Virus record (IMG/VR): IMGVR_UViG_3300044646_002624
Location: 1 to 21,596 of that record
Source: a virus
Strand: one strand, 5' to 3'
Length of the DNA stretch: 21,596 nt
The notes beneath the pieces are model-generated. The model ran no database searches. It was not told the DNA's origin and saw only the letters and a list, made by a program, of their open reading frames with translations. Made by a program: the position numbers and the translations under genes. Positions within the stretch are counted from its first letter, which is position 1, and each line of letters opens with the position of its first letter. Below, piece by piece: positions 2,644 through 19,236 of this stretch.

Positions 2644-2664
2644 TTAGTCTCACGGTGCGAAAAA
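2644..2664 (-). promoter_or_regulatory. Palindromic operator copy 1, upstream of the resolvase
   Basis: On the plus strand the left arm is TTAGTCTCAC, the central base is G at 2654, and the right arm is GTGCGAAAAA. It fills the 39-bp gap between the TerS-like gene and the resolvase. Read toward the resolvase, the distal arm becomes GACTAACCT, a possible -10 region. The centre is 19 bp from the GTG start, the closest of the five copies. Confidence 0.6.
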
Positions 2665-2674
2665 GGCACACGCG

Positions 2675-3232
2675 TTACTCGGTGGGAGACACTTTCTGCA
2701 GGAGCTTCTCGTACTGGTCAAGCTCTTCGTCCGTGAGCTTCGAGAGGTCAATGGTGGTCTTCACGTGCTCGGTGCTCTCCCCGCGCACGAGACGGTCCAA
2801 CTTGATCGCCGTGTCGGTGAGGCGCGTTACCTGCGAGAGCGTGAACGGTCCCGGCATGTCCCCCGAATCCTCCGAGAGCTTGTTCAGCTTCGCGAGTTCC
2901 CTCGAGGCCAAGCTCTTCGCGGAGCCCAAGATCGCCATGTGCTGCGCGGCCACGTCTCGCGCGTTCTGCGCAAGGACCTCTTCCCGCTCGGCTTGTCGCA
3001 AGCCGTCGACGTGGCGATCCCAGGCGAGCACGCGCTCACGCCAGGCGAACGTGTTCGCCCAGTCGTAGATCTTCTGCGTGCGACCCACGAGGCGCGTGAA
3101 CGAACGCGGCGCGCCCTGGTCCCGGTAGGACTGGAACGCGGCCCATGCGTCTTCGGGCTCGGCCTCTTGCCGGTGCCAGGGGCGCACCTCCGCTTGTGCC
3201 GCGCGCCACCGCTCTCGGCTCTCCTTGCTCAT
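2675..3232 (-). CDS. Putative terminase small subunit-like protein
   Basis: The protein has 185 residues, starting at ATG 3232, which overlaps the TGA of the upstream HTH gene by 4 bp (ATGA). It is strongly helical and charged. Residues ~45-85 contain FTRLVGRTQKIYDWANTF and WRERVLAWDRHVDG, a Trp-rich pattern seen in phage proteins often annotated as small terminase subunits or TerS-like DNA-recognition proteins. A conserved-looking C-terminal helix reads LSKLTDEELDQYEKLL. An AAGGAG sequence lies 11 nt before the start. It is next to the portal but divergent from it, and about 3 kb from TerL, so the assignment rests on pattern and general location. An alternative is an uncharacterised head-associated helical protein. 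Longer starts up to 3337 overlap the HTH gene and are less likely. Confidence 0.45.
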   Translation of the reverse strand: MSKESRERWRAAQAEVRPWHRQEAEPEDAWAAFQSYRDQGAPRSFTRLVGRTQKIYDWANTFAWRERVLAWDRHVDGLRQAEREEVLAQNARDVAAQHMAILGSAKSLASRELAKLNKLSEDSGDMPGPFTLSQVTRLTDTAIKLDRLVRGESTEHVKTTIDLSKLTDEELDQYEKLLQKVSPTE

Positions 3233-3411
3233 GTGGGGGCGGGCTCCTTGAGGAACTGCCACGTGCGGCCGGTGCAGATGCGGAACACCGTTCCAAGCGA
3301 GACCCCGAGTTCCCGGGCGATCTTCTCGTACGTCCAATGCTCCGCGCGCAGCTCGAGGACGCGGCGTGCGCCGGTCTCCCGGAGGCGGCCTTGCGGAGTC
3401 TTATACGGCAT
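3229..3411 (-). CDS. Small helix-turn-helix protein
   Basis: The protein has 60 residues. Its centre, WTYEKIARELGVSLGTVFRI, is a clear tri-helical HTH of the resolvase/homeodomain-like type: helix, the LGVS turn, and a recognition helix. A GGAGG sequence lies 13 nt before the ATG. The stop overlaps the start of the TerS-like gene (ATGA), so the two are probably translationally coupled. In phages, such a short HTH protein next to a TerS-like gene may help recognise pac/cos DNA, or may be a transcription regulator of the divergent portal operon. Neither can be decided here. Confidence 0.6.
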   Translation of the reverse strand: MPYKTPQGRLRETGARRVLELRAEHWTYEKIARELGVSLGTVFRICTGRTWQFLKEPAPT

Positions 3412-3489
3412 GTGTCAAGACTAGCCTCCGCCGTGGGATTTTTCGCGCGCGCTTGGCAGGTACTCTATTCCCCTCCCGCCCTTCCGGAC
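3412..3489 (+). promoter_or_regulatory. Divergent intergenic region between the HTH/TerS genes and the portal gene
   Basis: This 78-bp gap separates a minus-strand and a plus-strand gene, so both promoters should lie here. An A/T-richer stretch with TTTTTC and TACTCT about 16 bp apart is a weak plus-strand promoter candidate. No full copy of the 21-bp palindrome is present, only a degenerate CAC-containing fragment. The assignment is by position more than by motif. Confidence 0.3.
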
Positions 3490-4854
3490 GTGATCGAGCC
3501 TCCGCGGCCTCGTGGGGACGCGTGGGAAAACGCGATGCTTGGCTACGGCACGTCGAGGGACAAGGTGGCGCAAGTCGCGTTCACCATGCCGTACCGCCTC
3601 GACGATCACACGCTCCAAGCGCTGTGCGAGAGCGATGCGATCTCCGCCAAGATCGTCGAGAAAAAACCGAAAGAGGCCTTCCGGCGCGGGTATAAGGTCG
3701 AGGCCGAAGAAGCGAAAGAACTCGGCCCCCTGCGGAAGCTCGCAGAGGATCTCAATTTCGACGACGCCCTACAGGAGACCCTCGTGGGCGCAAGGCAGTA
3801 CGGCGGCGCCGTGCTCATCCTTGGCGTCGACGACGGGCTCCCGCCGGACCAGCCGCTCAACCTCGCGGGCGTGCGAGGTATCGACTACATCACCCCACTC
3901 GATCGACGCTTCCTCTCCGTGGAGCGCACTTACCGCGAGCCCTTGCGGGCGAACTTCGGCAAGCCCGAGGTCTACCGCATCGGGGCGGAGGGTTCGCTCG
4001 CCCTCATCCACGAGAGCCGCGTGATTCGCTTCGACGGCACGCGCGCCGACGCAAGGCGCCGCGTTAACGGCGGATGGGGCATGAGCGTCCTGCAGCGCGT
4101 CTACACGGCGTTGCAGTGGTACGTCACCAGCTACCAATCCTCCGCGGCCCTGATGGCCGATGCGTCGCAAGCCGTGTTCACCATCAACGGGCTCATGACG
4201 GCAATCGCCTCGGACCCGGCGACGCTGAAGACGCGCATGGCCCTGGTGGACCAGCAACGCAGCGCGGGCCGGGCCATCATGCTCGACGCAGATGGCGAGA
4301 AGTTCGAGCGAATCGCCACGTCCTTCACCGGCATCCCTGATGTCCTCGATCGGATGATGCTCCTCGTGTGCGGCGTGGCGGACATGCCGGCCACCGTGCT
4401 CTTCGGGCGTTCGCCCGCGGGCCTGAACGCCACGGGGGAGAGTGACACCCGGGGTTGGTACGACGAAGTCTCCTCGATGCAAGACAAGGAACTCACGCCC
4501 GCGGTCGTGCGGTTCTTCGAGGTCTTGAGCGCCGGCCGGGTGAAGGTCAAGGTTTGCTGGGAGCCGCTCCAGGCGCCGACCGCGAAGGAAGAGGCGGAGC
4601 TCGGCAAGGCCAAGGCGGAGACGGACAAGGTCTATATCGACACCGGCGTCCTCCACCCGGAGGAAGTCGCTCTCGCTCGGTTCGGCACGGAGCAAGGGGG
4701 CCAGATCGTGATCGATGAGGCCGCCCGGAAGAAGTCCCTCAAGGAGGAGATCTCCCTGGCCCTAGATCCTCCGCCGCCTCCCCCTCCCGGGGCGCCCGTG
4801 CCCCCTGGCGCGCCTCCCGTCCCCCCGGCGGCTCCCGATGCCCCGCCTCGCTAA
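3490..4854 (+). CDS. Phage portal protein (DUF1073/Phage_portal_3 family)
   Basis: The protein has 454 residues from GTG 3490. The N-terminal part has DAWENAMLGYGTSRDK, then a helix pair (ISAKIVEKKPKEAFRRGYKV), YGGAVLILGVDDG and GIDYITPLDRRFL, all typical of the DUF1073 portal family. The middle reads IHESRVIRFDGTR and SVLQRVYTALQWY. The later VADMPATVLFGRSPAGLNATGESD with RGWYDEVSSMQ is the family's strongest signature. Portals form the dodecameric DNA entry ring and dock the terminase. The last ~30 residues are a Pro/Ala tail, presumably disordered. The GTG at 3490 keeps the conserved N-terminus; an earlier GTG at 3433 is possible, and neither has a clear Shine-Dalgarno. The 3' end overlaps the head morphogenesis gene by 17 bp. 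Confidence 0.85.
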   Translation: MIEPPRPRGDAWENAMLGYGTSRDKVAQVAFTMPYRLDDHTLQALCESDAISAKIVEKKPKEAFRRGYKVEAEEAKELGPLRKLAEDLNFDDALQETLVGARQYGGAVLILGVDDGLPPDQPLNLAGVRGIDYITPLDRRFLSVERTYREPLRANFGKPEVYRIGAEGSLALIHESRVIRFDGTRADARRRVNGGWGMSVLQRVYTALQWYVTSYQSSAALMADASQAVFTINGLMTAIASDPATLKTRMALVDQQRSAGRAIMLDADGEKFERIATSFTGIPDVLDRMMLLVCGVADMPATVLFGRSPAGLNATGESDTRGWYDEVSSMQDKELTPAVVRFFEVLSAGRVKVKVCWEPLQAPTAKEEAELGKAKAETDKVYIDTGVLHPEEVALARFGTEQGGQIVIDEAARKKSLKEEISLALDPPPPPPPGAPVPPGAPPVPPAAPDAPPR

Positions 4855-5581
4855 GCGCGCGCTACGGAGGCGCCTGGCGGCCCGACTGCAGGCGAATCGG
4901 AAGGCCGAGAGAAAGTACGCGGAGGCCCTCGCCGGAGTCATGCGAGCGATCCACGCGGAAACGCTCAAGTGGCTCGAGGGGAAGGGCGTGTTCCGGCAAG
5001 ACGCGAAGGTCTTGCCCAATGAGTTCGATATCCACTTCGCGCGGGTGATCGCTGCGCTCCCGCGAGTCGTGGACGCGAAGTTCAGTGCCATGGCCGCCGA
5101 TGTGGCGGAGTCGAACGAGGAGGCGCTCACGGTCGTGGGCATCAACGCCCGCGCCCTCGGGCTCTCGGCCACCATCGCTAAGGCGAGGGACGAGAACATT
5201 CGCCTCGTGGAGAAGGCCGCGCGCGTGTACGCGGAGGACGTGCGGGAGATCTTCGACGATCCCGACGCGCATACGTGGCGCGTGGAGGAGTTGCAGGGGC
5301 GACTCCTCGAACGCGGGAACGTGAGTGTCTCTCGGGCGGAGCTCATCGCCCGGGACCAGACGCTCAAGACGAACGCGGCGATCACGCAAACGAGGCAGGT
5401 GCAGGCCGGCGTGGAGGAGTACGAGTGGAGCACTTCACTCGATGAGCGAGTGCGCGACGAACACCGCGCGCTCGAGGGGCAGAGGTTCGCTTGGAACAAC
5501 CCTCCGAGCGTCGGCCACCCAGGCGAGGACTTTCAGTGCCGGTGCGTGGCGATCCCGGTCATTCCTGAGGTGGACGACTAA
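4838..5581 (+). CDS. Phage head morphogenesis protein (SPP1 gp7 / Mu F-like)
   Basis: The protein has 247 residues and its ATG lies inside the Pro-rich tail of the portal gene. The N-terminal ~60 residues are basic and helical. The C-terminal third carries the family pattern: AELIARDQTLKTNAAITQTR, YEWSTSLDERVRDEHRALEG, then GHPGEDFQCRCVAIPV with the Cys-Arg-Cys near residues 234-236. This minor head protein binds the portal or the DNA-entry region and usually follows the portal gene, as here. The 3' end overlaps that of the convergent zinc-ribbon gene by 23 bp, with no terminator between them. No scaffold, protease or major capsid gene follows in this window, so the rest of the head module must be elsewhere. 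Confidence 0.8.
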   Translation: MPRLAKRALRRRLAARLQANRKAERKYAEALAGVMRAIHAETLKWLEGKGVFRQDAKVLPNEFDIHFARVIAALPRVVDAKFSAMAADVAESNEEALTVVGINARALGLSATIAKARDENIRLVEKAARVYAEDVREIFDDPDAHTWRVEELQGRLLERGNVSVSRAELIARDQTLKTNAAITQTRQVQAGVEEYEWSTSLDERVRDEHRALEGQRFAWNNPPSVGHPGEDFQCRCVAIPVIPEVDD

Positions 5582-5771
5582 TCGAGGGCGCCGCGTGCTC
5601 GTAGAAGTAGAGACCGCTGCGTCCGCCCTTGCCGTTGATGTGCCGAAGCAGCCACGCCCAGGCGATCCTCACGCAGGGCCCGCAGACAATCCACGTCTCG
5701 GTGTACTGACACCCGCTCGCCGGGTGGGCGACGCCTCCGCAGTCTCGGCACGTGTGGACCGCGAACGTCAC
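5559..5771 (-). CDS. Small Cys-rich (zinc-ribbon-like) hypothetical protein
   Basis: The protein has 70 residues from GTG 5771, whose GTGA overlaps the stop of the gene upstream. Cys pairs CRDC near residue 8 and CGPC near residue 29, with His residues between and around them, suggest a zinc ribbon. The rest is aromatic (WAWLLRHI, GLYFYEH). An in-frame start as far back as 5936 exists, but that extension would read through the neighbouring gene and is Arg/Ala-rich noise. It is the last gene of the minus-strand operon containing sigma factor and TerL. Function unknown. Confidence 0.5.
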   Translation of the reverse strand: MTFAVHTCRDCGGVAHPASGCQYTETWIVCGPCVRIAWAWLLRHINGKGGRSGLYFYEHAAPSISRPPQE

Positions 5772-6007
5772 GACTCCGCCTGGCCGAACCAGCGGTAGGG
5801 CTCCGCAGGCCCGAGGGCGCGATCGTCGGAGTCGTCCCGACGACGGTGCTCCACATGCCGAAGCTCGACGGACCCGGGCAACGGCGCATGCTTCTGATAC
5901 CCGTGGGGCTTCGTCGCCGCACGCAGAAGCCCGCACTCGCAGTACACGACCATGTCCCCCGCCTCTGCGTCGCCGCAGACCACACCCGCCAACGTGTCAC
6001 CGGACAT
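5768..6007 (-). CDS. Hypothetical protein, 79 aa
   Basis: The start is ATG 6007, with an unusually good Shine-Dalgarno (AAAGGAG) 8 nt upstream; a GTG directly before it is an alternative. The N-terminus (GDTLAGVVCGDAEAGDMVVYCECG) looks like a short beta structure with three Cys residues, perhaps metal-binding. The C-terminal half is rich in Arg, Asp and His. It overlaps the upstream ORF by 11 bp and the downstream zinc-ribbon ORF by 4 bp. No family recognised. Confidence 0.5.
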   Translation of the reverse strand: MSGDTLAGVVCGDAEAGDMVVYCECGLLRAATKPHGYQKHAPLPGSVELRHVEHRRRDDSDDRALGPAEPYRWFGQAES

Positions 6008-6179
6008 CACATTCTCCTTTCGGTGGAACGGTCGACGCCGTCCCCATCTCTTCCCGTTCCAAGTCCTCGCGCTGCGCCTCGATCTCCGTGAGCGCCTGCG
6101 CGAAACGAAGCACGTCCGCCAGGGGTCGCCCGGAGAGCATGCGCTCGAGCGCGTCCAACTCCTCCACGAGCGGCGTCAT
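5997..6179 (-). CDS. Small helical hypothetical protein, 60 aa
   Basis: The start at 6179 forms an ATGA overlap with the stop of TerL, so translation is probably coupled to it. The product is an acidic, Leu- and Glu-rich helix (VEELDALERML, FAQALTEIEAQREDLEREE) with coiled-coil character and a short polar tail. Its place after TerL suggests an accessory role in packaging or simple genomic hitch-hiking. No family recognised. Confidence 0.5.
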   Translation of the reverse strand: MTPLVEELDALERMLSGRPLADVLRFAQALTEIEAQREDLEREEMGTASTVPPKGECDVR

Positions 6180-7639
6180 ATCCCGAGCTCCGCCAACCGC
6201 TCGGGGTGCTCCGCGAGGGCGGCCATGGCGGCGGCCATCTGAGACGCCCGGGTCACGAGCCAATTGAGAGCCTGTGTGGTTGCGTCCACGGAGTCGTCCT
6301 TCGCGCCCCGGGGGAACGAGATCATTTCCGTCTCGTGATCATCGATCCACGGGGCAACCTTCGGATGCGGGTGGAAGACGTTCCCGGCCTCGAAGTAGGG
6401 CGCCACCGCGTTCGCGCGTGCGACCTTGCCCCCCTCGGGGTTGATGGGGATGAAGCCCGGGATCTTCTTCTTGAGCGTGGAGATCACCGCCGAACCGTTG
6501 GCCTTGTCCTCCACGAGCTTCACCCCCGCGCGAGGCCACTTTCGTGTCATGGCGCCGATGGCCTTGAGCGTGGCGGGGAAGTCCAAGCGTTCGTGGATGC
6601 GGTCGAGGAGGTAGAACTCTCCCCCGCGAACACCCCACACTTGCCCGCAAACGAAGTCCGAATCGCTCTCGTCCTTGAACGAGCAGTCCCAGGATTGGAT
6701 GAGGAGATCGAACTTCGCCGGTGCCACCTCGAACGATTGGAACCAGCCCCGTTGAAACACCGCGCCGCCCTCGGGCGTTGGCCGTTGCTGCTCCTGCGCC
6801 GCCGTTCCGATGGGCCCCATCTCCTTCGCCCGCGCCGCGCACTCGGCCTCGCCGAACCTCGCCGGGAAGAGGAGCTCACCGTCCTCCGTGCGTGGGTCCT
6901 TGAAGCCGATCGACGTAGAGCAGGCCCGCGCAGGCTCGTAGCGCATCGGCAAGCGCAGGAACTCCCAACCGCCCTCCTGCTCGAAGAGGCCGGCGAGGTC
7001 GCGCTCGTGGAGGCGCTGCATGATGAGCACGGCCGCCCCGCCTTCGTCCGCGGGGAAGATGCGCGAGCGGAGCGTGTTCTTCCACGTGTCCTCGCAGTTA
7101 TCGAGGGCGACTTTCGTGAGGGCTCCGGGCTTGATCGGATCGTCGATCACCAGGCGATGCGCGTGGCGCCCGGTGACGGAGCCCTCGAAGGAGGCGCCGT
7201 AGCGGAAGCCCCCGGCGGAGTTCTCGAAGTCGCCAGCGGCGGCGTCCTTCGACGGGACGATCACCTTCTCACCCCAGCGCGCCTTGAACCAATCACTTTG
7301 GAGGAGCTTGAGGCATCGGCCCCCGTCCCGCTTCCCCGTGAGGCGGGAGTCGAAGGACATGAAGATCCAACGCAGCGACGGGTCCTCGATCCACTCCCAG
7401 CACGGCCAGAAGACGCACGTCTCCAGGGACTTCATGCAGCCCGGCGGGATGTTCACCACGAGGCGGCGGATCTGCCCCCGGTGCACGGCCTCGAGGTGCT
7501 CTGCCATGGCGCCCACGTGCCAGTTGTCCTTGAACTCTCCGGGCTCGATTTGGTGCCACGCAAGGCGAGTGAACGCATGCAAGCCGCCGCGCCGAACGCG
7601 CTCCCTATCGAGGGCGATTCGTTCGGCGAGCGCGCTCAT
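6176..7639 (-). CDS. terL: Terminase large subunit (ATPase-nuclease)
   Basis: The protein has 487 residues, a normal TerL length. Walker A is NIPPGCMKS at residues ~63-71, with the PPG-x-x-KS form common in this TerL group. Walker B is LVIDDP at ~163-168 and the coupling region follows. The C-terminal RNase H-like nuclease carries its acidic residues in IQSWDCSFK (Asp317), LVEDKANG (Glu377/Asp378) and KDDSVDATTQAL (Asp448/449/452). The motor docks on the portal, translocates DNA into the prohead and cuts concatemers. The ATG overlaps the stop of the sigma-factor gene (ATGA). It faces the portal/head genes from the opposite strand, instead of lying directly before the portal as usual. Confidence 0.92.
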   Translation of the reverse strand: MSALAERIALDRERVRRGGLHAFTRLAWHQIEPGEFKDNWHVGAMAEHLEAVHRGQIRRLVVNIPPGCMKSLETCVFWPCWEWIEDPSLRWIFMSFDSRLTGKRDGGRCLKLLQSDWFKARWGEKVIVPSKDAAAGDFENSAGGFRYGASFEGSVTGRHAHRLVIDDPIKPGALTKVALDNCEDTWKNTLRSRIFPADEGGAAVLIMQRLHERDLAGLFEQEGGWEFLRLPMRYEPARACSTSIGFKDPRTEDGELLFPARFGEAECAARAKEMGPIGTAAQEQQRPTPEGGAVFQRGWFQSFEVAPAKFDLLIQSWDCSFKDESDSDFVCGQVWGVRGGEFYLLDRIHERLDFPATLKAIGAMTRKWPRAGVKLVEDKANGSAVISTLKKKIPGFIPINPEGGKVARANAVAPYFEAGNVFHPHPKVAPWIDDHETEMISFPRGAKDDSVDATTQALNWLVTRASQMAAAMAALAEHPERLAELGI

Positions 7640-9187: not shown

Positions 9188-9768
9188 GGAATGTCACCCG
9201 CGAGGATGCCGGCGACGATCGACACACCCGGGAGGCCGTAGGCGCGTGCAACCAGGGGACCGCCCCTCTCTTGGTTCCACGGTCGATCGACAACGATCGA
9301 GCGCTTGCCCTGTCGCTTGGACCATTCGACGCACGTCTCGAGGCGGTCCTCAATGAGGATGTCTCCGGGCTCGTCCGCCTTCCGCTCCTTGTGGCAGAAG
9401 GTCACGGCATCAACGTGGCCCCGGAGCCATTCGCGCCGCTCTTCAGTCCAGTGCGGGGAGTTGCCGTAGGGCGCCGTGAGGGCCGTGACATGCCCAAGGA
9501 GACGGAGCTCCGCGAGCCAATCCTTCGCCCCCTCGTACCACTCCAGGCCCGAGCAGAACCCGGGGGACGAGCACATGCGGTGCATCTCCTCTTGCTCCCG
9601 CTCGGTGAGAGCCTTGCGCATGTCGTACTCCCGGAAGAGCTCGGGCCGGTACCTAAGAGGCACGACGGAAGGCCGGCGAGAGGGACCGGACCAGGCCTGC
9701 AGGCCTTGGCACACTGCCCCCACGAAGTTCGCCAACACCCCGTCGACGTCGACAAGAATCTTCCTCAT
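9184..9768 (-). CDS. 5'(3')-deoxyribonucleotidase-like HAD phosphatase
   Basis: The protein has 194 residues from ATG 9768, with GGAGG 8 nt upstream and an ATGA overlap with the preceding gene. HAD motif I is ILVDVDGVLANF with Asp7 (nucleophile) and Asp9. Motif II is HVTALTAP with Thr98. The motif III Lys lies in the HKERKADEP segment, and motif IV is GDILIEDR with Asp136/Asp141. This is the NT5C pattern of enzymes that dephosphorylate deoxynucleoside monophosphates. It may tune dNTP pools or remove unwanted nucleotides during infection, in line with the dATP/dGTP diphosphohydrolase-like gene 400 bp away. The open frame extends further upstream to 10086, but that part overlaps the metallopeptidase gene in another frame. 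Confidence 0.75.
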   Translation of the reverse strand: MRKILVDVDGVLANFVGAVCQGLQAWSGPSRRPSVVPLRYRPELFREYDMRKALTEREQEEMHRMCSSPGFCSGLEWYEGAKDWLAELRLLGHVTALTAPYGNSPHWTEERREWLRGHVDAVTFCHKERKADEPGDILIEDRLETCVEWSKRQGKRSIVVDRPWNQERGGPLVARAYGLPGVSIVAGILAGDIP

Positions 9769-10112
9769 GAGTCCAACCTCCAAAGCGCTTGCCCGTTCTG
9801 AGAAACGAGCGTGATCACGTGCGGCGTCACGAGCCGCACCAAAGTCTCTTCGAACTTCTCCCCGTCCACTCCGGGCGCAAGGAACGACGTCAAGAACGTT
9901 CCAATGCCCGTGGCGTGCAGGAAGTAGTGCACGACCTCGTGAACGAGCGTGTCCCGAAGCGAAGCGGGAGAAGCCCCCTGCGCCACGTAGATCACACCCG
10001 CTTCGAAGTCGCAGGCACCGAATTGGTTTTGGAGATCCGAGACCTCCTCTTCCGTTGCGACCACCACTCTCACGGGTTGGCCGCAAATCACAATCAGTCC
10101 CGCCTCATGCAT
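9765..10112 (-). CDS. Small HExxH zinc-metallopeptidase-like protein
   Basis: The protein has 115 residues. TLVHEVVHYFLHATG contains HEVVH (His58, Glu59, His62), and a later acidic helix (EKFEETLVRL) could give the third zinc ligand. This matches short phage proteins of the ImmA/IrrE- or SprT-like type. ImmA-type proteases cleave repressors, so a regulatory role is conceivable, but short phage members are mostly uncharacterised. It is the first gene of the run to sigma factor and TerL. The palindromic operator at 10128-10148 lies just upstream, with its centre 26 bp from the ATG; AAAGGGG between them is a possible ribosome site. Confidence 0.6.
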   Translation of the reverse strand: MHEAGLIVICGQPVRVVVATEEEVSDLQNQFGACDFEAGVIYVAQGASPASLRDTLVHEVVHYFLHATGIGTFLTSFLAPGVDGEKFEETLVRLVTPHVITLVSQNGQALWRLDS

Positions 10113-10127
10113 CGCCGGAACGCCCCT

Positions 10128-10148
10128 TTACTACCACCGTGTTACTAA
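10128..10148 (-). promoter_or_regulatory. Palindromic operator copy 2, upstream of the metallopeptidase-sigma-TerL operon
   Basis: The left arm is TTACTACCAC, the centre C is at 10138, and the right arm is GTGTTACTAA. The inverse complement of the right arm, TTAGTAACAC, differs from the left arm at only two of ten positions, making this one of the two most symmetrical copies. It occupies the 52-bp gap between the diphosphohydrolase gene and the metallopeptidase gene and implies an internal promoter in the long minus-strand gene run. Confidence 0.6.
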
Positions 10149-10164
10149 TTGGCGAGACAAAAGA

Positions 10165-10632
10165 TCACGCCTTGGGAACTTTTTTCAGCGCGTCGAAGCC
10201 CACGCTCTTGGAGATTAGGAACAGGACGCAGCACGCGGCGTGGGCCACGTGAAGTAGCCCGCTCTCTGCGTCCTTCTCGTCTCCCATGTCGGACGCGCCC
10301 AGATGCCGCAGCGCGGCGGCGTAGTAACGATCCTCGAACGGCGTCACCTTCTGCCAGTTGTTCGGGCCGTACTTCGTTGCGCCAAAGGTCAGGACTCGGG
10401 CAACCTCGAACGCCCCGTCCTCCGCGTACACCTCGAGGGCCGCGAGAAGTTCGCTCGCCGCGCCCCGGAGCAGGTCGAGCCCGCCGACGTGGCGCCATGC
10501 GAGGAGCGCGCTTCGGGCGCGGGCGATGTACCGCCGGGCGCGCACGCTCTCCAGCTCGAGCAACGCCCCCGCCGGCAGGAGATCCGTACGCACTTTGCCT
10601 TGATCATCTTTACGTCCTGGTCCCATCGTCAT
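10165..10632 (-). CDS. dATP/dGTP diphosphohydrolase-like protein (DUF5664/MazG-like) with an insertion
   Basis: The protein has 155 residues from ATG 10632, chosen because GGAGG lies 5 nt upstream; an ATG at 10662 would form an ATGA overlap with the polymerase stop and add ten residues. The N-terminal RKDDQGKVRTDLLPAGAL and the later VARVLTFGATKYGPNNWQKV are the family's two halves, followed by DRYYAAALRHL and the Glu/His-containing helix GLLHVAHAACCVLFL. In usual members the two halves are nearly contiguous; here ~45 helical residues (from LESVRARRYIARAR to VYAEDGAFE) separate them. The enzyme should hydrolyse purine dNTPs or act on nucleotide pools. It is the last gene of the polymerase operon. 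Confidence 0.7.
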   Translation of the reverse strand: MTMGPGRKDDQGKVRTDLLPAGALLELESVRARRYIARARSALLAWRHVGGLDLLRGAASELLAALEVYAEDGAFEVARVLTFGATKYGPNNWQKVTPFEDRYYAAALRHLGASDMGDEKDAESGLLHVAHAACCVLFLISKSVGFDALKKVPKA

Positions 10633-10658
10633 GTCCGCCTCCAAAGTTGCGTGAATGG

Positions 10659-12560: not shown

Positions 12561-12883
12561 AGATCTCGGGCCAAAACGGCTTGCGCTAGAGCTTCATTGA
12601 TCGAGCACTTCAGCGCATCGAAGGCGTCGCGAGCCTCCTTGAGTCCGCGCTGCGCGGAGTCCCGTTCCTCTCGAGCTTCGTCGCGCTCACCTTCGAGTTC
12701 GGTGATTTGCTCCTCGAGATCCGCCACGCGCTCCGCCTGTCCCATCGACTCCTTGGCGATCTGAAGGTCGTGCACGAGAGACATCACGAGCTCGTCCCCT
12801 CCGAGTTCCGTCTCGATGCGTGCGATGTGGCTCGCGTCGAGGAGGAAGGGCTTCTCACCGTTGGAGTTCGTCATGATGTGCAT
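12557..12883 (-). CDS. Coiled-coil hypothetical protein upstream of DNA polymerase
   Basis: The protein has 108 residues. Residues ~48-90 form a clear coiled coil of Glu/Arg/Leu heptads (ERVADLEEQITELEGERD and onwards), preceded by a short region with DASHIARIETELGG. The ATG at 12883 is used; a second ATG at 12874 is an alternative. The stop overlaps the polymerase ATG (ATGA), so it is coupled to polymerase expression and may be a small replication accessory or scaffold. A longer open frame upstream runs through the terminator and tRNA region and is rejected. It is the first gene after the tRNA-region terminator, but no copy of the 21-bp palindrome precedes it. Confidence 0.6.
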   Translation of the reverse strand: MHIMTNSNGEKPFLLDASHIARIETELGGDELVMSLVHDLQIAKESMGQAERVADLEEQITELEGERDEAREERDSAQRGLKEARDAFDALKCSINEALAQAVLARDL

Positions 12884-12898
12884 GGGGCCTCGCGCTCG

Positions 12899-12940
12899 AA
12901 AAAGGGCGCGCACGGAGGGAAAGGAGACCTCCGTGCGCGC
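12899..12940 (-). terminator. Strong intrinsic terminator after the tRNA region
   Basis: A perfect 13-bp stem (GCGCGCACGGAGG against CCTCCGTGCGCGC, at 12928-12940 and 12906-12918) has a 9-nt loop and is followed on the minus strand by CC and TTTTT. It starts two bases after the 3' end of the tRNA-Trp-like gene and should end the RNA transcript coming from upstream. Confidence 0.85.
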
Positions 12941-12941
12941 A

Positions 12942-13010
12942 GCGGGACCGTGGGGATCGAACCCACCTAGACCGGTTTTGGAAACCGCTCCGCACCCAGT
13001 GCAAAGCCCC
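12942..13010 (-). tRNA. tRNA-Trp (CCA)-like gene with aberrant 5' half
   Basis: The T arm is canonical (GTGGG, loop TTCGATC, CCCAC). The variable loop is five bases. The anticodon arm has loop TTCCAAA, giving anticodon CCA, with four good stem pairs and one mismatch. The 5' third is unusual: GCAC-TGG-GTGC is too short for a D arm, and the 5' segment GGGGCTT pairs poorly with the 3' acceptor strand GGTCCCG. The CGGGACT just beyond the neighbouring 87-nt hairpin (13101-13107) would pair perfectly with that strand. No CCA is encoded. It may be a degenerate phage tRNA, or a tRNA interrupted by the hairpin element. Confidence 0.55.
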
Positions 13011-13013
13011 AAA

Positions 13014-13100
13014 GAGACGCACGCACGGAAGGGACGCAACCCTCCGGGGTATCCGCACGAAGGCGGAGGTACCGGGCAAAGTTGCCCGTGCGTGCGTCTC
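13014..13100 (-). ncRNA. Structured 87-nt element with 15-bp perfect closing stem
   Basis: GAGACGCACGCACGG at 13014-13028 is exactly inverse-complementary to 13086-13100. On the minus strand the inside can fold into three further hairpins: one around GCAACTTTGC, one with TCCGC-CTTCGT-GCGGA extended by GGTA/TACC, and one with AGGG-TTGCGT-CCCT. That makes a four-way-junction, cloverleaf-like RNA between two tRNA-like genes. No known RNA family is recognised. The downstream terminator supports transcription on the minus strand. Confidence 0.45.
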
Positions 13101-13102
13101 AG

Positions 13103-13178
13103 TCCCGGGGGGTGGTCTCGACCCACCATGTCCACATCCACACAAGGATGTGTTGCCTTGCCATTAGGCGACCCCGAG
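13103..13178 (-). tRNA. tRNA-like gene (possible His GTG) with extended anticodon arm
   Basis: The 76-nt fold has a 7-bp acceptor (CTCGGGG with CCCCGGG), a D arm GCC-TAATGGCAA-GGC with the GG pair, a 5-nt variable loop and a T arm GGTGG-GTCGAGA-CCACC, and discriminator A. The anticodon arm is odd: CACATCC-TTGTGT-GGATGTG is a 7-bp stem with a 6-nt loop, instead of 5 bp with 7 nt. GTG after two U residues would read His codons. No CCA is encoded. It may be a non-functional or specialised phage tRNA; a small ORF overlapping it (to 13380) is less convincing. Confidence 0.5.
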
Positions 13179-13376
13179 TAGTGCCCAGAGGGAACGCGAA
13201 CGCTCGCCCTGGGCGGTGACAAACTCCGTAGCCTCGGGGAAGTTGCCGGTGTTCCCGGTCGACCCTGAGACCTTTGCGACCGCCCGAAAGCGTCGACGGT
13301 AGAGGCCTCCCCCGAAGGGGCGTCACGATGGCCTTTCGTGGAGCGGAGAGGCTGCGAACCTCGCCCGCCCCCTTGC
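13179..13376 (-). other. Non-coding leader of the tRNA region with local hairpins
   Basis: No convincing gene is seen between the OB-like gene and the tRNA-like gene. On the minus strand there are GC-rich hairpins: GCCCAG..CTGGGC enclosing GCGA-GCGT-TCGC near 13183-13214, and CCGG-GAACA-CCGG near 13250. A GGGCGGT/ACCGCCC pair frames about 70 nt in between, suggesting a further degraded tRNA-like fold, but no T arm can be fitted. A GTG at 13380 overlaps the upstream stop and opens a 93-aa frame, but its composition is Arg/Pro/Gly-rich and it runs into the tRNA-like gene. Confidence 0.35.
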
Positions 13377-13862
13377 TCACGCAGCCGCGGGGGCCGGTGA
13401 GAAAACGTGGCGGTGGTAGGTCTTCCCAGGGTTCTTCTTGGAGTCCTTGAGGAAGACGTGATCCCGCACCTTGCGACCCTTCAAGACCTGTTCTGCAGAG
13501 ATCGCCGCTTCTGCGATCTGTTCGATCTCGCCGTCGAGCTTCTTGATCGCTTCCGCGTTCGCCGGGTCCTTGAGGTCGAGACCCACGCAAGCTTGGATGA
13601 ACCCCTTGAGGGCTCCGAAGCCGACGTCCTTATCGGTGAGGTCCTGCATCCAAGAGCGCTTGGCGCCGACCGGATCCAAGAGTTCCCCCTTGTCGTTCTT
13701 CTTCCCGTTCGAGTTCTCGATCACGACGCACTCCGCAATGAAGAACGTCTTCCCTCGACCCGTCACGAGGCACTTCTGCACCTCGAGCACGAACTCGCCC
13801 TCTGCGAGGTACTGGCCCGTTTGGCTCGTCTTCGCTTCACTCAATCCACCGAACATGCCCAT
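13377..13862 (-). CDS. Conserved-type small phage replication-region protein, possibly OB-fold ssDNA-binding
   Basis: The protein has 161 residues. The N-terminal half reads FGGLSEAKTSQTGQYLAEGEFVLEVQK, then GKTFFIAECVVIENS, followed by DPVGAKRSWMQDL and GFGALKGFIQACVGL. This order resembles a group of small phage proteins near polymerases and helicases that look like OB-fold ssDNA-binding proteins (comparable to DUF669-type), but no binding residues can be named. The C-terminus (KNPGKTYHRHVFSP) ends in an Ala/Pro tail. It stands between the helicase gene and the tRNA region, and the palindromic operator at 13905-13925 lies 53 bp before its start, so it likely has its own promoter. An ATG two codons in is an alternative start. 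Confidence 0.55.
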   Translation of the reverse strand: MGMFGGLSEAKTSQTGQYLAEGEFVLEVQKCLVTGRGKTFFIAECVVIENSNGKKNDKGELLDPVGAKRSWMQDLTDKDVGFGALKGFIQACVGLDLKDPANAEAIKKLDGEIEQIAEAAISAEQVLKGRKVRDHVFLKDSKKNPGKTYHRHVFSPAPAAA

Positions 13863-13880
13863 GGTTCTTGACTCGCTTCC

Positions 13881-13897
13881 GTGCGCACTCTGCGCAC
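13881..13897. repeat. Short inverted repeat next to operator copy 3
   Basis: GTGCGCA and TGCGCAC are separated by CTC. It lies 8 bp from the 21-bp palindrome in the 5' leader of the OB-like gene. It contains the GTGCG/CGCAC core of the operator arms and could be a half-strength binding site or an mRNA hairpin. Confidence 0.4.
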
Positions 13898-13904
13898 CGG
13901 GAGA

Positions 13905-13925
13905 TTAGTCACACGGTGCGTGTAA
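13905..13925 (-). promoter_or_regulatory. Palindromic operator copy 3, upstream of the OB-like protein gene
   Basis: The left arm is TTAGTCACAC, the centre G is at 13915, and the right arm is GTGCGTGTAA. Read toward the gene it runs TTTACACGCAC, C, then GTGTGACTAATCT. The TAATCT end resembles a -10 element. The centre is 53 bp from the ATG, the same distance as copy 4 to the chosen start of the nuclease gene. Confidence 0.65.
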
Positions 13926-13949
13926 AGCACATGCCCCCGTGTCGATTCT

Positions 13950-15650
13950 TTACTTTTCCCAACGCGCTCCCGATTGAGGCGCCATGGGCATCGTGCAGTC
14001 TGCATACAAGAGCTTCTGAGGTTGCCCGAGCATGTCTTGCGCCATGCGAGCGTCGGCTAGGGCGCGATCCCAAGAGTCCGCGTGCTCCACGCAGGAGATC
14101 ATGATGTCCACGGTCACCTCATCGGCCTCTTGCCCGTCACGGTGCGTGCGTCCGAGCATCTGCTCCCATGTGTCGGCGCTCGGGGGGAGCGACGTCACGA
14201 GGTTCTTGTTCCAGCGCTGCAGGTTCCGCCCCGTGGAGTTCGCGGCGACGCTGGCAATGATCGGCCCAGAACCCGACTCGATGGGCTTGCCCTTGGCATT
14301 GAGGCCCTGCGGCCCGTAGTAGGGGTGGCCGGTGAGACGGGAGAGCTCACGGGCGAAAAAGGTGTGTTCGCACCATGCGATCCCCTTCTCGCGCTCAAGC
14401 CACGCCGCGCACCAATCGAGCGCCGTGCGGTCGTGCCAGATGGCCTTGGGGTTGATCTGGAACGTGGCGCGGACGCCGTCCCACCAGTCCCATTCGTCCC
14501 GGCGGAGCTTGCCGGCGCGGACAGCGTTCGCCACCTGCAGCTCCGTGTCCAGGGTGCGGGAGTGCGAGAGGACGTCGCGAACGAACTTCGCCCACGCCTT
14601 GCGAGCGTTCAGCCAACCTTGGGGAGGCCTCGGGTCCCACACGTAGTGGAAGCCCAGGGCGAGCTCGCGCGCGTGGCGCCACACGTCCACGGCTTGCGTG
14701 AGAGCCCAACCATCGGGCGTTTCCATTTCCGAGCGGAGCTTGGCGAAGTGGCGATCGGTGTCCGCATTCCCGGGGACCACGTGCCCCTCGAGGTAGAGGG
14801 AGCAAGAGACCTGATCGCCACCGGATGAAACGACGCCGGGGGTGTCCACGAGGCGCCGGTGGAACGCTTTCCGCGCGGTCTCCAGGGCGGTCTCCCCCTT
14901 GTCCTCGGGGGTCGCGAGTGTGAGCAGCGCACCCGGGTGAACGCGCAGGAGGGGGTTCACCTTCTCGTCCAGGCATGAGGCCCATTCCTCGAGTTCGGAG
15001 TCCACGAGGGGGACGGGGGCGTTGTCGCGGTGGGTCCACTCGATGAGGTGGGCGAAGTCCCGGAGGGATCGCTTGAGGATCGAGCCGGACATCACGAGCA
15101 CGCGCGTCTCCGGGTTCTCGCGGAGGTACCGCGTGAGGCGGCGCGTGACTCCCGCGCGCTTGTTCTTCGCGCGGTGACCTTCGTCGAGGATGAGGAAGTC
15201 GGGCTTCACGAAGTCGAGGAAGGCCGCGCTCTGCACGCGCCCGAGCATCTCGTAGGAGACGATCCGCAGGCTCGCGGGGATCTGCCAGTGCTGCGTGAGG
15301 GAGGCCCGCTCCCGGTCGGTCTTGGCCACGAGGGACGCAGGGAGAACGAGGAGCGGCTTCTTCGCGTCGACCATCAACGGAGCGAGGAGGGAGAGGAGCG
15401 TCTTCCCGCCGCCCACACGAATGGGCGCGAAGAGGCCGCGCACCTGTCGGAGCTCCGCGAGGGCTTGAGCCTGAATCGGGCGGAGGGTCATGGTTCCGCC
15501 GGATTTCTTGAGTTCCCGGGTGAGCTTCTCCACGAGCCCTTCGGGCACGGGCCCACGTCGGGGGATGGCTTCAATGCGGCGGAAGTCCGCGGTGCGTTCG
15601 ATCGCGCGCTTCTGGAACGTGCGAGCCGCCTGGTCTTGCCAGAAGCTCAC
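13950..15650 (-). CDS. SNF2-like superfamily 2 helicase/ATPase
   Basis: The protein has 566 residues from GTG 15650, which overlaps the stop of the methyltransferase (GTGA) and has GGGGAGG 8 nt upstream. Q-like motif TLRPIQAQAL at ~55-64 is followed by Walker A RVGGGKTLLSLL (~78-89), Walker B FLILDEGHRAKN (~152-163) with the DEGH box, and motif III-like VLVMSGS (~184-190). Near the C-terminus, IASVAANSTGRNLQRW corresponds to motif V and QMLGRTHRDGQEADEV (~497-512) to motif VI. It is a compact two-lobed DNA translocase/helicase as found in phage replication modules. The frame stays open upstream to 16037, but only inside the methyltransferase gene. The middle insertion between lobes is about 200 residues and otherwise unassigned. 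Confidence 0.82.
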   Translation of the reverse strand: MSFWQDQAARTFQKRAIERTADFRRIEAIPRRGPVPEGLVEKLTRELKKSGGTMTLRPIQAQALAELRQVRGLFAPIRVGGGKTLLSLLAPLMVDAKKPLLVLPASLVAKTDRERASLTQHWQIPASLRIVSYEMLGRVQSAAFLDFVKPDFLILDEGHRAKNKRAGVTRRLTRYLRENPETRVLVMSGSILKRSLRDFAHLIEWTHRDNAPVPLVDSELEEWASCLDEKVNPLLRVHPGALLTLATPEDKGETALETARKAFHRRLVDTPGVVSSGGDQVSCSLYLEGHVVPGNADTDRHFAKLRSEMETPDGWALTQAVDVWRHARELALGFHYVWDPRPPQGWLNARKAWAKFVRDVLSHSRTLDTELQVANAVRAGKLRRDEWDWWDGVRATFQINPKAIWHDRTALDWCAAWLEREKGIAWCEHTFFARELSRLTGHPYYGPQGLNAKGKPIESGSGPIIASVAANSTGRNLQRWNKNLVTSLPPSADTWEQMLGRTHRDGQEADEVTVDIMISCVEHADSWDRALADARMAQDMLGQPQKLLYADCTMPMAPQSGARWEK

Positions 15651-16909
15651 GCCGCCAACCTCCCCGCCGGCCGGTGCATGTTCGCCCGCGCGATGGCCGC
15701 CGCAAGCGGAGGGCACACCGAGTTGCCGCACATGCGTACCTGCGCGGTGATCGAGAGGGCCTTTCCCTCGAAGGTCGGATCGATCACGTAGTCGTCGCGG
15801 AACCCCTGGGCTCGGAAGAGCTCCCGAGGGGTGAGCATGCGCATGCCGATGTCCGTGATCTCCAGGCCCTTGGGGTCTACCCCGAACCGCTCGAGGAACG
15901 CGCGTACCTGGGCACGGCGGGGCCCGTTCACTTCGACCGTCAAGAGCGAGTGGTGGTCCTGCGTCGTGATCGTCGAGAGCGGCGCCCGGAGAGACGCTCC
16001 GGTGCCCTCGTGGCCGCCGTAGTGCTTGGCGATGCACGCGTACACGAGCCCGTGCTTCTGCCCGCCCGCCACGACCGTTCCAAGGGGCTTCTTGAGGTCA
16101 AGCACCCGTGGGGCCTGTCCCTTCCGCTCCCCGTAGCTCGTCTGGATGAGCGCGGCGGCGCCCTCGGGTACGAGCACGGGGTGCTGCGCGTCGAGGACGT
16201 GCTTTTGAATCGCCCGGGCGATGCGCGCGAGCGTCTTATCCGCGAGGGGCTTCTTCCGGTCGAAGATCGAGCGGACGGGGGTCGTCCAGTCGATGCACTC
16301 ACTCGCCGTTCGGTAGGGGACGAGCCCCGGGCCGTGCGTGGGCTCGGGCCAAACGATGGGCTCGCCGTCACACCGGGCGACTACGAAGAGGCGCTTGCGC
16401 GAGGTGGGCGCGCCGTAGTGATGTGCCTGCAGTTCGCGCCACTCGACCGCGTACCCAGCGCGTTCGAGTTGCCGCACCCACGTGCGAAAGGACTTACCCT
16501 TACGCTTCGGGCACGGCTTCCCGTTCGCGAGGAGAGGGCCCCACGTCTTGAACTCGGGGACGTTCTCCACGATGATCACACGGGGCTTCACCGCGCGAGC
16601 CCAGCGCACGCCCACGCTTGCGAGCGAGCGAATCTTCGCGCTCTTCGGCTTCCCACCCTTCGCTCGGGAGAAGTGGGTGCAGTTCGGTGAGAGCCAGAGG
16701 AGGCCCATGGGCCGGCCGCCGGTGGCCTCCTCGGGATCGATCTCGTAGATGTCCGAGCGATAGTGCTTCGTGCCCGGGTGGTTGGCCTCGTGCATCGCCA
16801 GGGCCATCGCATCGTGATTGATCGCGAAGTGCGGCGGGAGGCCGGCGAGGGTCAAGCCTTCGCTCGCACCCCCGCCGCCCGCGAAGCCATCGCCCACGAG
16901 CTCCTTCAC
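15647..16909 (-). CDS. DNA (cytosine-5) methyltransferase
   Basis: The protein has 420 residues and a GTG start directly after the stop of the pentapeptide gene. Motif I is DGFAGGGGASEGL (SAM binding). Motif IV is LWLSPNCTHFSRAKGG, with catalytic Cys77 in an SPNC form instead of the usual PPC. Motif VI is VIIVENVPEF with Glu115, motif VIII is GAPTSRKRLF with Arg171/Arg173, and motif X near the end is MCGNSVCPPLAAAIA. A target-recognition region lies at ~220-340. The SPxCTHFS form is common in phage solitary methylases, which protect phage DNA from host restriction or mark it. No cognate restriction enzyme gene is visible beside it. Translation of the helicase downstream is coupled by a GTGA overlap. 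Confidence 0.9.
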   Translation of the reverse strand: MKELVGDGFAGGGGASEGLTLAGLPPHFAINHDAMALAMHEANHPGTKHYRSDIYEIDPEEATGGRPMGLLWLSPNCTHFSRAKGGKPKSAKIRSLASVGVRWARAVKPRVIIVENVPEFKTWGPLLANGKPCPKRKGKSFRTWVRQLERAGYAVEWRELQAHHYGAPTSRKRLFVVARCDGEPIVWPEPTHGPGLVPYRTASECIDWTTPVRSIFDRKKPLADKTLARIARAIQKHVLDAQHPVLVPEGAAALIQTSYGERKGQAPRVLDLKKPLGTVVAGGQKHGLVYACIAKHYGGHEGTGASLRAPLSTITTQDHHSLLTVEVNGPRRAQVRAFLERFGVDPKGLEITDIGMRMLTPRELFRAQGFRDDYVIDPTFEGKALSITAQVRMCGNSVCPPLAAAIARANMHRPAGRLAA

Positions 16910-17797
16910 TTACGCTTCCACCCGAAGAGACTTCTTGGGCTTGATCTCGGTGGCGAGGTCCACGACCGAAGGCACCCGAGCGCGATAGTCCTCGAGCCAC
17001 GAAGCGGCCCAGAAGTATGCCTGCGCAGCGGCCGGGTTCGTCTCCGGGGTATCGCCCCGATTGATCCGCGCGAACCACATCTCCGCGGGCCGGCTCGAAT
17101 CCCGAGGGAGGCCCTTCAGGCCGTTGCGATCGAGTGTGCCTACGAGGCACGCGCAATCCCCATCGCCGTAGGTCGAGCCGTCGACCTTGCCCGTGCGCAA
17201 CGCGGTGAGCAGGCCTGGCACCTCGCCCGGTGCGAGTTCGAGGATCTTGTGGATGTCCTCGCGGAACTTCGCAAAGTATTCCTCGACGCCTTTCGTGCCC
17301 CCGAGGTTGGCGCCATAGAGGTTGGCGCCATAGAGGTCGGCGCCCCCGAGGTCGGCGCCATAGAGGTTGGCGCTTCGGAGGTTGGCGCTTCGGAGGTCGG
17401 CGCTTCGGAGGTTGGCGCTTCGGAGGTTGGCGCTTCGGAGGTCGGCGCTTCGGAGGTCGGCGCTTCGGAGGTCGGCGCTTCGGAGGTTGGCGCCCCCGAG
17501 GTCGGCGCCCCCGAGGTCGGCGCCATAGAGGTTGGCGCCATAGAGGTTGGCGCTTCGGAGGTTGGCGCTTCGGAGGTCGGCGCTTCGGAGGTCGGCGCTT
17601 CGGAGGTCGGCGCCCCCGAGGTTGGCGCCCCCGAGGTTGGCGCCCCCGAGGTCGGCGCCATAGAGGTTGGCGCTTCGGAGGTTGGCGCCCCCGAGGTCGG
17701 CGCCCCCACGCAAAGCCTCCAAGATGGCCTCACGCAAAGTCAAATGCTCGGAGCGGTGAAGAACTGCTTCCGTGTAGCGGTGCTTGATTTCGATCAT
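16910..17797 (-). CDS. Pentapeptide-repeat protein with conserved phage-type C-terminal domain
   Basis: The protein has 295 residues from ATG 17797 (AGGAAGGA upstream). Residues 31-165 are 27 uninterrupted pentapeptides, each an A-D/N-L triplet preceded by only GG, RS or YG. Such repeats make a right-handed square beta-helix of about seven coils; DNA-mimicking relatives such as MfpA and Qnr bind gyrase, but a gyrase role here is only an analogy. The C-terminal ~130 residues contain LAPGEVPGLLTALRTGKVDG, GDCACLVGTLDRNGLKGL and RINRGDTPETNPAA, a block that accompanies pentapeptide repeats in other phage proteins and has no known function. The long repetitive frames on the plus strand here are shadows. 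Confidence 0.8.
   Translation of the reverse strand: MIEIKHRYTEAVLHRSEHLTLREAILEALRGGADLGGANLRSANLYGADLGGANLGGANLGGADLRSADLRSADLRSANLRSANLYGANLYGADLGGADLGGANLRSADLRSADLRSADLRSANLRSANLRSADLRSANLRSANLYGADLGGADLYGANLYGANLGGTKGVEEYFAKFREDIHKILELAPGEVPGLLTALRTGKVDGSTYGDGDCACLVGTLDRNGLKGLPRDSSRPAEMWFARINRGDTPETNPAAAQAYFWAASWLEDYRARVPSVVDLATEIKPKKSLRVEA
17303..17707 (-). repeat. 15-bp coding minisatellite, 27 units
   Basis: Each unit is 15 bp and encodes one pentapeptide. Units differ almost only in a six-base block (GG, RS or YG codons) and in one base giving Asp or Asn. Synonymous positions are otherwise uniform, which implies recent expansion or homogenisation. Runs such as eight RS units in a row suggest slippage or unequal recombination. 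Confidence 0.95.
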
Positions 17798-17813
17798 GGT
17801 CTGGTCCTTCCTT

Positions 17814-19106
17814 TCAGTGTCCGACGACGACGTAGGCCGCCCGGGATTCGAGAGCTGCGAGGCACGCGGAGCCCTCGGGGGTGCGCGTGGAGAGGGTGAT
17901 TGCGTCGTGCTCCTCGGCCAGCTTCGCGACCGCGAGCGAGAGCACGCCGGGGCCCTTGCCGTATCCGATGAAGCGGAAGTCCTCGACACCGCCCGTCTCC
18001 GGGTCCGCCTTGATGATGCCGCGAGCTTGCTCCACGAGCGTGGAGAGACGAGTCACCGAGCGACCACGCACGGGCTCGCAGTCGACGTAGAGAGCGAAGG
18101 CACCTACGCCCGCCTGCACGGGGGTGACCTTCTCCGCCTTCTTCGTGGTGCGCTTGGGCTTCTCGGCGGGGGCTTCGGGCGCGCCGGCCTCTTCGGGCAC
18201 GGGGCACGGCGGGAGAGCACTCTCCGGCGGGTTGATCGGGACGGGATCGAGCGCGGGGGGCGCGTCGTCCTCCACGGGAGCGGGCGCCTTGGGCGCAACA
18301 ACATCCTTACGAGCCTGGAGAGACGAGAGAAAAGATCCGGACATGACAGATTTCAACCTTTCAGCGGGGGACAAGTTGCAACGTGAGCGATGTGGACAGC
18401 CCCCAAAGGCCTCACACGCGTTCGCATTCGGAGGGAGAGAGAGAGCCGCTGGCTTCGCCCGGTGCAGCTCGGTGAGTTCGTGCGCAACGCCTTCGATCAC
18501 CGGCATGACCTGCGCGGCGTGCTCTCGGGTGACCTCCACCTCTACGGGCCTGGCGACCTTTGAGCCCTTCGTCGGGAGGTAGAGCCAACGAAGGCGCACC
18601 AAATCGGTGCCGTAGAAGTCGAGGTGATCCTGGGCGTAAAGGATGGCCTGCGTGTCCCAGAGGAGATCGTCGGACGTCTTCGCGTACCGCAGGTTCCCCG
18701 TGCTCTTGTGATCGTGCACGAGCCCGGGCATCTCCACGTCCTTGAAGCCCTGGTAGAGGAAGCCCGTGCGCAGCGATTGCACGACGAACGAACCCTCGAC
18801 CACAAGACCGGGCGAGAGAGGATCGGGAATGTGTCCGAGGGCGGCTTGCGCGATGGCGCCGCTCTCGTCCACGGTTCCGTCCTCGTGGACGAACGTGAAC
18901 GAACCGCCCTTGAGGTGCGTCTCGAGTTGCTTGTGCACACGAGAGCCCAAGAGGGCGTTCGGATGCGCGGGAGTCTCTACGCCTTCGATGTACTTGAAGG
19001 CCCACTTACGTGCACACTGCAAAAACGTCTCGATCTGAGACGCGGAAAAGCAGGGCACGTTCCGGTGCACGGTAGGTGCATAGGTAAACCACATGACGGC
19101 GCGCAT
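17814..19106 (-). CDS. Cas4/RecB-like PD-(D/E)XK nuclease fused to an extra C-terminal domain
   Basis: The protein has 430 residues from ATG 19106; ATG 19094 and a GTG at 19070 are alternatives, and earlier starts would overlap the operator. FSASQIETFLQCARKWAFKYI begins the fold in two parts. GSRVHKQLETHL follows, then GFKDVEMPGLVHDHKST with Asp123, Asp132 and Lys134 as probable catalytic residues, and DTQAILYA as the Q-x-x-x-Y motif. One N-terminal Cys (31) and three C-terminal ones (231, 237, 243, in CEAFGGCPHRSRC) fit a 4Fe-4S cluster as in Cas4/AddB. A Pro/Ala/Lys linker then leads to ~105 unassigned residues (GAFALYVDCEP, FRFIGYGKGPGVLSLAVAKL, TPEGSACLAAL). It may process DNA ends in phage recombination. 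It heads the minus operon with the MTase and helicase. Confidence 0.78.
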   Translation of the reverse strand: MRAVMWFTYAPTVHRNVPCFSASQIETFLQCARKWAFKYIEGVETPAHPNALLGSRVHKQLETHLKGGSFTFVHEDGTVDESGAIAQAALGHIPDPLSPGLVVEGSFVVQSLRTGFLYQGFKDVEMPGLVHDHKSTGNLRYAKTSDDLLWDTQAILYAQDHLDFYGTDLVRLRWLYLPTKGSKVARPVEVEVTREHAAQVMPVIEGVAHELTELHRAKPAALSLPPNANACEAFGGCPHRSRCNLSPAERLKSVMSGSFLSSLQARKDVVAPKAPAPVEDDAPPALDPVPINPPESALPPCPVPEEAGAPEAPAEKPKRTTKKAEKVTPVQAGVGAFALYVDCEPVRGRSVTRLSTLVEQARGIIKADPETGGVEDFRFIGYGKGPGVLSLAVAKLAEEHDAITLSTRTPEGSACLAALESRAAYVVVGH

Positions 19107-19148
19107 CGCGGCTCTCGCGAGCGCGCGGTCCCTTTCGACAAGGGGTAT

Positions 19149-19169
19149 ATAGTCACACCGTGCGCCGAA
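19149..19169 (-). promoter_or_regulatory. Palindromic operator copy 4, nuclease side of the divergent region
   Basis: The left arm is ATAGTCACAC, the centre C is at 19159, and the right arm GTGCGCCGAA is less symmetrical. Read toward the nuclease gene it continues as GTGTGACTATATACC, with TATATA as a good -10 candidate. The centre is 53 bp from ATG 19106. Confidence 0.6.
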
Positions 19170-19178
19170 CGCACACAA

Positions 19179-19199
19179 TTTTTCTCACCGTGCGAATAA
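19179..19199 (+). promoter_or_regulatory. Palindromic operator copy 5, PrimPol side of the divergent region
   Basis: The left arm is TTTTTCTCAC, the centre C is at 19189, and the right arm is GTGCGAATAA. The inverse of the right arm, TTATTCGCAC, differs from the left arm at two of ten positions. Its centre is exactly 30 bp from that of copy 4, about three DNA turns, so both could be bound on the same face. AATAAT at the right arm is a -10 candidate for the PrimPol-helicase gene. Confidence 0.65.
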
Positions 19200-19236
19200 T
19201 TGTTCTTTCGGGGCCCTTTTTGCCTAGCTTGCCCTG

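Follow-up and report, generated by a model that had tools for sequence, protein, structure and literature searches.

Dispersed 21-bp palindromes before five transcription units of an uncultivated phage: probable operators of one repressor, with a core that varies between relatives

The DNA analysed here (hereafter, the window) is a 21.6-kb IMG/VR phage fragment, and the counts of five sites given below apply to that stretch only. Five different transcription units, each preceded by a copy of the same palindromic element, can be distinguished in it: (i) a Holliday junction resolvase-like (RuvC-like) gene (2192–2635, minus strand; PHROG 1770; GTG start at 2635), followed directly downstream by the gene of a 105-aa helix-turn-helix (HTH) protein (1865–2182, minus strand); (ii) a small metallopeptidase-like gene (9765–10112, minus strand; HEVVH motif recognized by eye; PHROG 1233, function unknown), which heads a unit with the sigma factor and TerL genes; (iii) an OB-like protein gene (13377–13862, minus strand), whose putative OB assignment comes from a preliminary description of this DNA and whose product has no match in Pfam and 60–62% identity in relatives; (iv) a PD-(D/E)XK nuclease gene (17814–19106, minus strand; PF12705), which leads a nuclease/methylase/helicase unit; and (v) a PrimPol-helicase gene (19237–21366, plus strand; PF09250 and PF05272).

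Two IMG/VR phages, G002 (32.9 kb) and G003 (48.1 kb), are syntenic with the window across the shared part, with 45–88% identity for most proteins. The loci L047/L055 are the G003 phage again (99.8%) and add no independent evidence. Among bacterial genomes, a helicase scan found no relatives, and a TerL scan gave distant relatives only, at or below 48%. Between the OB-like and coiled-coil genes there is a long structured noncoding stretch (12884–13376) that contains a tRNA-Trp (CCA) gene (12942–13011, minus strand); the same gap holds an odd tRNA-like gene with no clear anticodon in G002 and, in G003, a tRNA-like stretch that ARAGORN does not call. A pentapeptide-repeat protein (PF00805) is encoded at 16910–17989 on the minus strand, in a slot that in G002 and G003 holds different, SAAE-type repeat proteins.

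The element is an odd-centred palindrome of 21 bp, TTANTCNCAC-S-GTGNGANTAA, found with at most three mismatches at 2644–2664 (copy 1, minus strand, before the resolvase and HTH gene pair), 10128–10148 (copy 2, minus strand, before the metallopeptidase, sigma factor and TerL genes), 13905–13925 (copy 3, minus strand, before the OB-like gene), 19149–19169 (copy 4, minus strand, before the nuclease gene) and 19179–19199 (copy 5, plus strand, before the PrimPol-helicase gene). The pattern TTANTCNCACSGTGNGANTAA, again with up to three mismatches, has exactly five matches in the window and none in 100 dinucleotide shuffles, so the palindromes reported in the preliminary description are real, and the centres given there are correct. 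The five sites reach 22.6–30.5 bits with a matrix derived from them; the next match in the window is intragenic and reaches 13.1 bits, 9.5 bits below the weakest site. The heptamer CACSGTG occurs 11 times, i.e., in the five sites and in six other places which, as had been described, lack the A/T arms. All five sites are wholly noncoding, compared with 5.6% of the 21-mers of the window, and the probability of this placement by chance is therefore about 5e-7. With start codons chosen using the relatives as a guide, the recomputed distances from centre to start are approximately 19 (GTG 2635), 26 (ATG 10112), 53 (ATG 13862), 53 (ATG 19106) and 48 bp (GTG 19237), in agreement with the reported intergenic location 19–53 bp before a start codon.

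The sites, mostly single copies, are spread over about 16.5 kb; copies 4 and 5 lie 30 bp apart, centre to centre. Between six and eight of the ten arm pairs are symmetric, copy 4 being the weakest (three mismatches and 6/10 arm pairs). In most records, generic palindromes are about as numerous as after shuffling and, in consequence, symmetry alone was not taken as evidence. An exact search for the motif in IMG/VR returned a single match (L029), which was set aside because a few chance matches are expected, by our estimate, in a collection of that size.

When the matrix of the window was applied to 24 TerL-related loci, no matching set was found, and the window motif is absent as a set from G002 and G003. 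This result first suggested that the element was not conserved, but reading the orthologous intergenic regions revealed sites with changed cores. Two loci keep related palindromes in both relatives: the region before the OB-like gene and the divergent nuclease–PrimPol intergenic region. Among these sites, the outer arms TTAGT/ACTAA are kept and the core varies (CACSGTG, CTCSGAG, CAANNTG). The counterpart of copy 3 before the OB-like gene is TTACTGGCTAGGAGAGAATAT at 16395 in G002 and TTAGTTGCAATGCGCTAGTAA at 18671 in G003. Between the nuclease and PrimPol genes, G002 has TTACTCTCTCGGAGAGACTAT at 21097 (counterpart of copy 4) and a second copy at 21126 (counterpart of copy 5), and G003 has CGGGTTGCAGTTTGCCACTAA (counterpart of copy 4, at 12805) and a degenerate partner that corresponds to copy 5; the spacing of the pair is 30, 29 and 31 bp in the window, G002 and G003, respectively. 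Copies 1 (resolvase) and 2 (peptidase) have no clear site at the matching places of G002 and G003, and the regulon is therefore only partly conserved. The relatives have few sites, of which some are weak, with 5/10 arm pairs; shuffling of single regions gave P values for the arms from <0.0005 to 0.22, several of them at 0.05–0.22, so that individual weak sites are unproven and it is the combination of place, spacing and arms that carries the argument. Two copies in G002 and some in G003 are weakly symmetric, which would fit palindromes that had arisen by chance or acted at the RNA level (for instance, as leader hairpins) and that no common protein binds. Such an origin is very improbable, given that shuffling predicts no matches, that the sites are strictly intergenic and that both the loci and the spacing of the pair are conserved in relatives.

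Further sites are found in G003 at 41157 and 45379: TTAGTTGCAGATTGATAGTAT precedes an operon formed by a 58-aa ORF and a tyrosine integrase gene (PF00589), and TTAGTATCAATCTGATACTAA separates the lysis cassette from a divergent zinc-finger-like ORF. No integrase was seen within the 21.6 kb of the window. The phage group is probably temperate, since G003 encodes this integrase and carries variant sites before the integrase operon and the lysis cassette. An integrase is also encoded by G004, a more distant phage, in which a 21-bp odd-centred palindrome, AATCYAGCGYSGCGCTRGATT, occurs twice (10399–10419 and 36394–36414): one copy lies between OB-like and polymerase genes, and the other heads a run of genes that ends in the integrase gene. 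The proposal that the element defines an operator-like regulon is well supported by its exclusively intergenic location, the five units that it precedes, the two loci kept in two relatives, and the integrase and lysis sites of G003.

The position of the element with respect to promoter-like sequences was analysed after turning each site towards its gene. The score for a -10-like hexamer peaks sharply at position 19 of the site (mean of 2.27, versus about -2 downstream), a peak inflated in part by the TAA of the palindrome itself; the hexamers found there include TAACCT, TAATCT, TATATA, TAAGTT, TATCTT and TAATGT. In addition, 5 of 12 sites have a recurrent TGC within a -35-like hexamer placed 17 nt before the -10-like one (P = 0.0015 by shuffling and 0.0065 by jittering), as in GTGCCT-N17-TAACCT (copy 1, minus strand), GTGCTT-N17-TAATCT (copy 3) and GTGCGT-N17-TATATA (copy 4). 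Hence, with a site that ends in a -10-like TAnnnT and that often has a TGC 17 nt before it, the palindrome would fill the spacer of a promoter. A scan of the window with the strict E. coli sigma-70 consensus found no promoter. The suggestion that the element combines an operator and a -10 box is, in consequence, plausible but no more than moderately supported: the peak at position 19 and the upstream TGC speak for it, while the contribution of the palindrome's own TAA and the lack of strict sigma-70 promoters speak against it. A second -10-like box is present before the PrimPol gene at 19219–19237, downstream of copy 5, with the sequence CCTAGCTT in both the window and G003 and CCTAGGTT in G002; this box may be the true PrimPol promoter.

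Poor -35 boxes and the absence of strict sigma-70 promoters would also fit promoters that depend on an activator, and the phage encodes a sigma-70-like factor; the sites could, accordingly, be bound by a phage activator, or by a partner of that sigma factor, through which early or middle promoters would be switched on. This is nonetheless unlikely. Activators rarely bind across the -35/-10 spacer (MerR-type proteins are the exception), and the palindrome would cover the whole of it and touch the -10 box; moreover, one site common to integrase, replication and lysis genes fits lysogenic repression better.

The same geometry bears on a function in replication or DNA maintenance, i.e., as iterons of a replication origin, parS-like partition sites or recombination sites. 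The CACSGTG core resembles that of parS, and the divergent nuclease and PrimPol genes have two copies in the gap that separates them. However, parS sites, with ParB encoded nearby, are even-centred and clustered near the origin, whereas those of the window are odd-centred and dispersed over 16.5 kb, mostly as single copies, each before a unit and in a constant position with respect to a -10-like box. Besides, G003 has an integrase and no ParB was found in the subset of proteins scanned, all of which makes this function extremely unlikely.

The five palindromes are, by contrast, probably dispersed operators of one phage repressor, the specificity of which would have drifted between relatives. 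The repressor would be a single phage-encoded dimeric (or dimer-of-dimers) protein that, in the prophage, would occupy the -35/-10 spacers and hold off the promoters of replication, recombination and packaging-control genes and, in G003, those of integration and lysis genes as well. Upon loss of the repressor, these units would be switched on together. A lysogeny repressor would be expected to act through one site common to genes of replication, integration and lysis. Repression rather than activation, and binding by a protein of the phage itself, are inferred. In the relatives, some of the corresponding promoters retain an operator with unchanged outer arms and altered core bases, as would be expected if repressor and operators drifted jointly and the phages became heteroimmune.

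Regarding the protein that would bind the sites, the 105-aa HTH protein, encoded in the unit behind copy 1, is tentatively considered the likeliest known candidate. The C-terminal half has a confident all-helical model (pLDDT about 90), and Cro proteins are among the best Foldseek matches of that model, the first being N15 Cro bound to its operator, with a probability of 0.98 but a weak E-value (0.21). Searches of the protein against Pfam and PHROG gave no match, its profile gave chance matches only among PDB sequences, and scanning found no relatives beyond G002 and G003. Its orthologues are 34–41% identical, among the least conserved of the shared proteins (most neighbours, 45–88%), and the predicted recognition helix shows changes as well as a short insertion. 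The gene lies in a late-gene region, not in a classical immunity region. Other DNA-binding proteins of the phage are a conserved 60-aa HTH protein, whose gene adjoins that of the small terminase, and the sigma-70-like factor already mentioned. A 59-aa protein of G003, ribbon-helix-helix (RHH)-like and encoded near the integrase (L037 4724–4903; G003 43623–43799), is an alternative candidate; no RHH protein was seen in the window.

If the sites were instead bound by a regulator of the host (a LexA-type SOS repressor, for instance), the phage genes would be tied to the host damage response. The TTAGT...ACTAA arms resemble some known LexA boxes, and an SOS regulon could well include nuclease, primase, resolvase and OB-like genes; yet the core differs in three related phages at kept positions, which is unexpected for a shared host regulator unless the hosts differ, and this origin is quite unlikely. 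P22 Arc is a phage repressor whose operator, of 21 bp as in the window, lies in the -35/-10 spacer of a phage promoter; unlike the arrangement in the window, it acts at a single locus and is a ribbon-helix-helix protein.

Systems of this kind are already known (BPs, phiC31 and cluster A phages), and it is the sequence and the phage group that are new. The BPs repressor gp33 binds five regulatory regions across the genome, controlling several promoters, and an operator lies between the -10 and -35 of the early promoter PR (PMC4557955). The window is similar in that binding of five regions by a small repressor, at operators located in promoter spacers, is proposed for it. The differences are that (i) the full BPs operator is made of two half sites of 12 bp, CGACATATGTCG and a copy that varies, separated by a variable spacer, while that of the window, unrelated in sequence, is a single odd-centred palindrome of 21 bp; and (ii) BPs immunity is integration-dependent (PMC4557955). 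For phiC31 and L5, the same account describes 18–30 dispersed repressor sites in their genomes (PMC4557955), compared with five in the window fragment; the likeness is one of layout, with many sites dispersed over one temperate phage genome, as in phiC31. According to the same account, the phiC31 repressor gene is downstream of the structural genes (PMC4557955), and the HTH gene of the window is also in a late-gene region.

In cluster A mycobacteriophages, the consensus of the binding sites and the specificity of the repressor diverge between relatives, resulting in heteroimmunity (PMC6550527); the group of the window likewise has a layout common to relatives and a diverging consensus. Their stoperators, 20–30 in number, are asymmetric, oriented with transcription and mostly not associated with promoters (PMC6550527), unlike the sites of the window, which are symmetric (six to eight of ten arm pairs) and promoter-proximal. 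The resemblance to repressor operators or stoperators noted in the preliminary description is thus well supported for the former; it is not supported for the latter, the sites being symmetric and all intergenic before start codons.

It is conceivable, if doubtful, that in this new phage group one small Cro-like protein, encoded outside any classical cI/cro immunity region, acts at once on the promoters for replication, recombination, packaging control, integration and lysis by binding a single operator in the spacer of each, with the core swapped wholesale between close relatives and positions and outer arms kept. If so, these phages would offer a natural series in which heteroimmunity and the co-evolution of a repressor with its operators could be followed. 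In any case, an uncultivated phage group gains a regulatory map, with the genes switched together and the probable places of its promoters. The co-varying core is the most interesting feature of the system: three relatives in which it changes, while the arms and some positions stay, provide a test case for joint change of repressor and operator specificity.

Finally, an element of different sequence, TTGACACTT-N5-CTAGTCT, is found before late genes at about 26300–26340 in G002 and about 39300–39390 in G003 (loci L034 and L037), and is possibly a late promoter.
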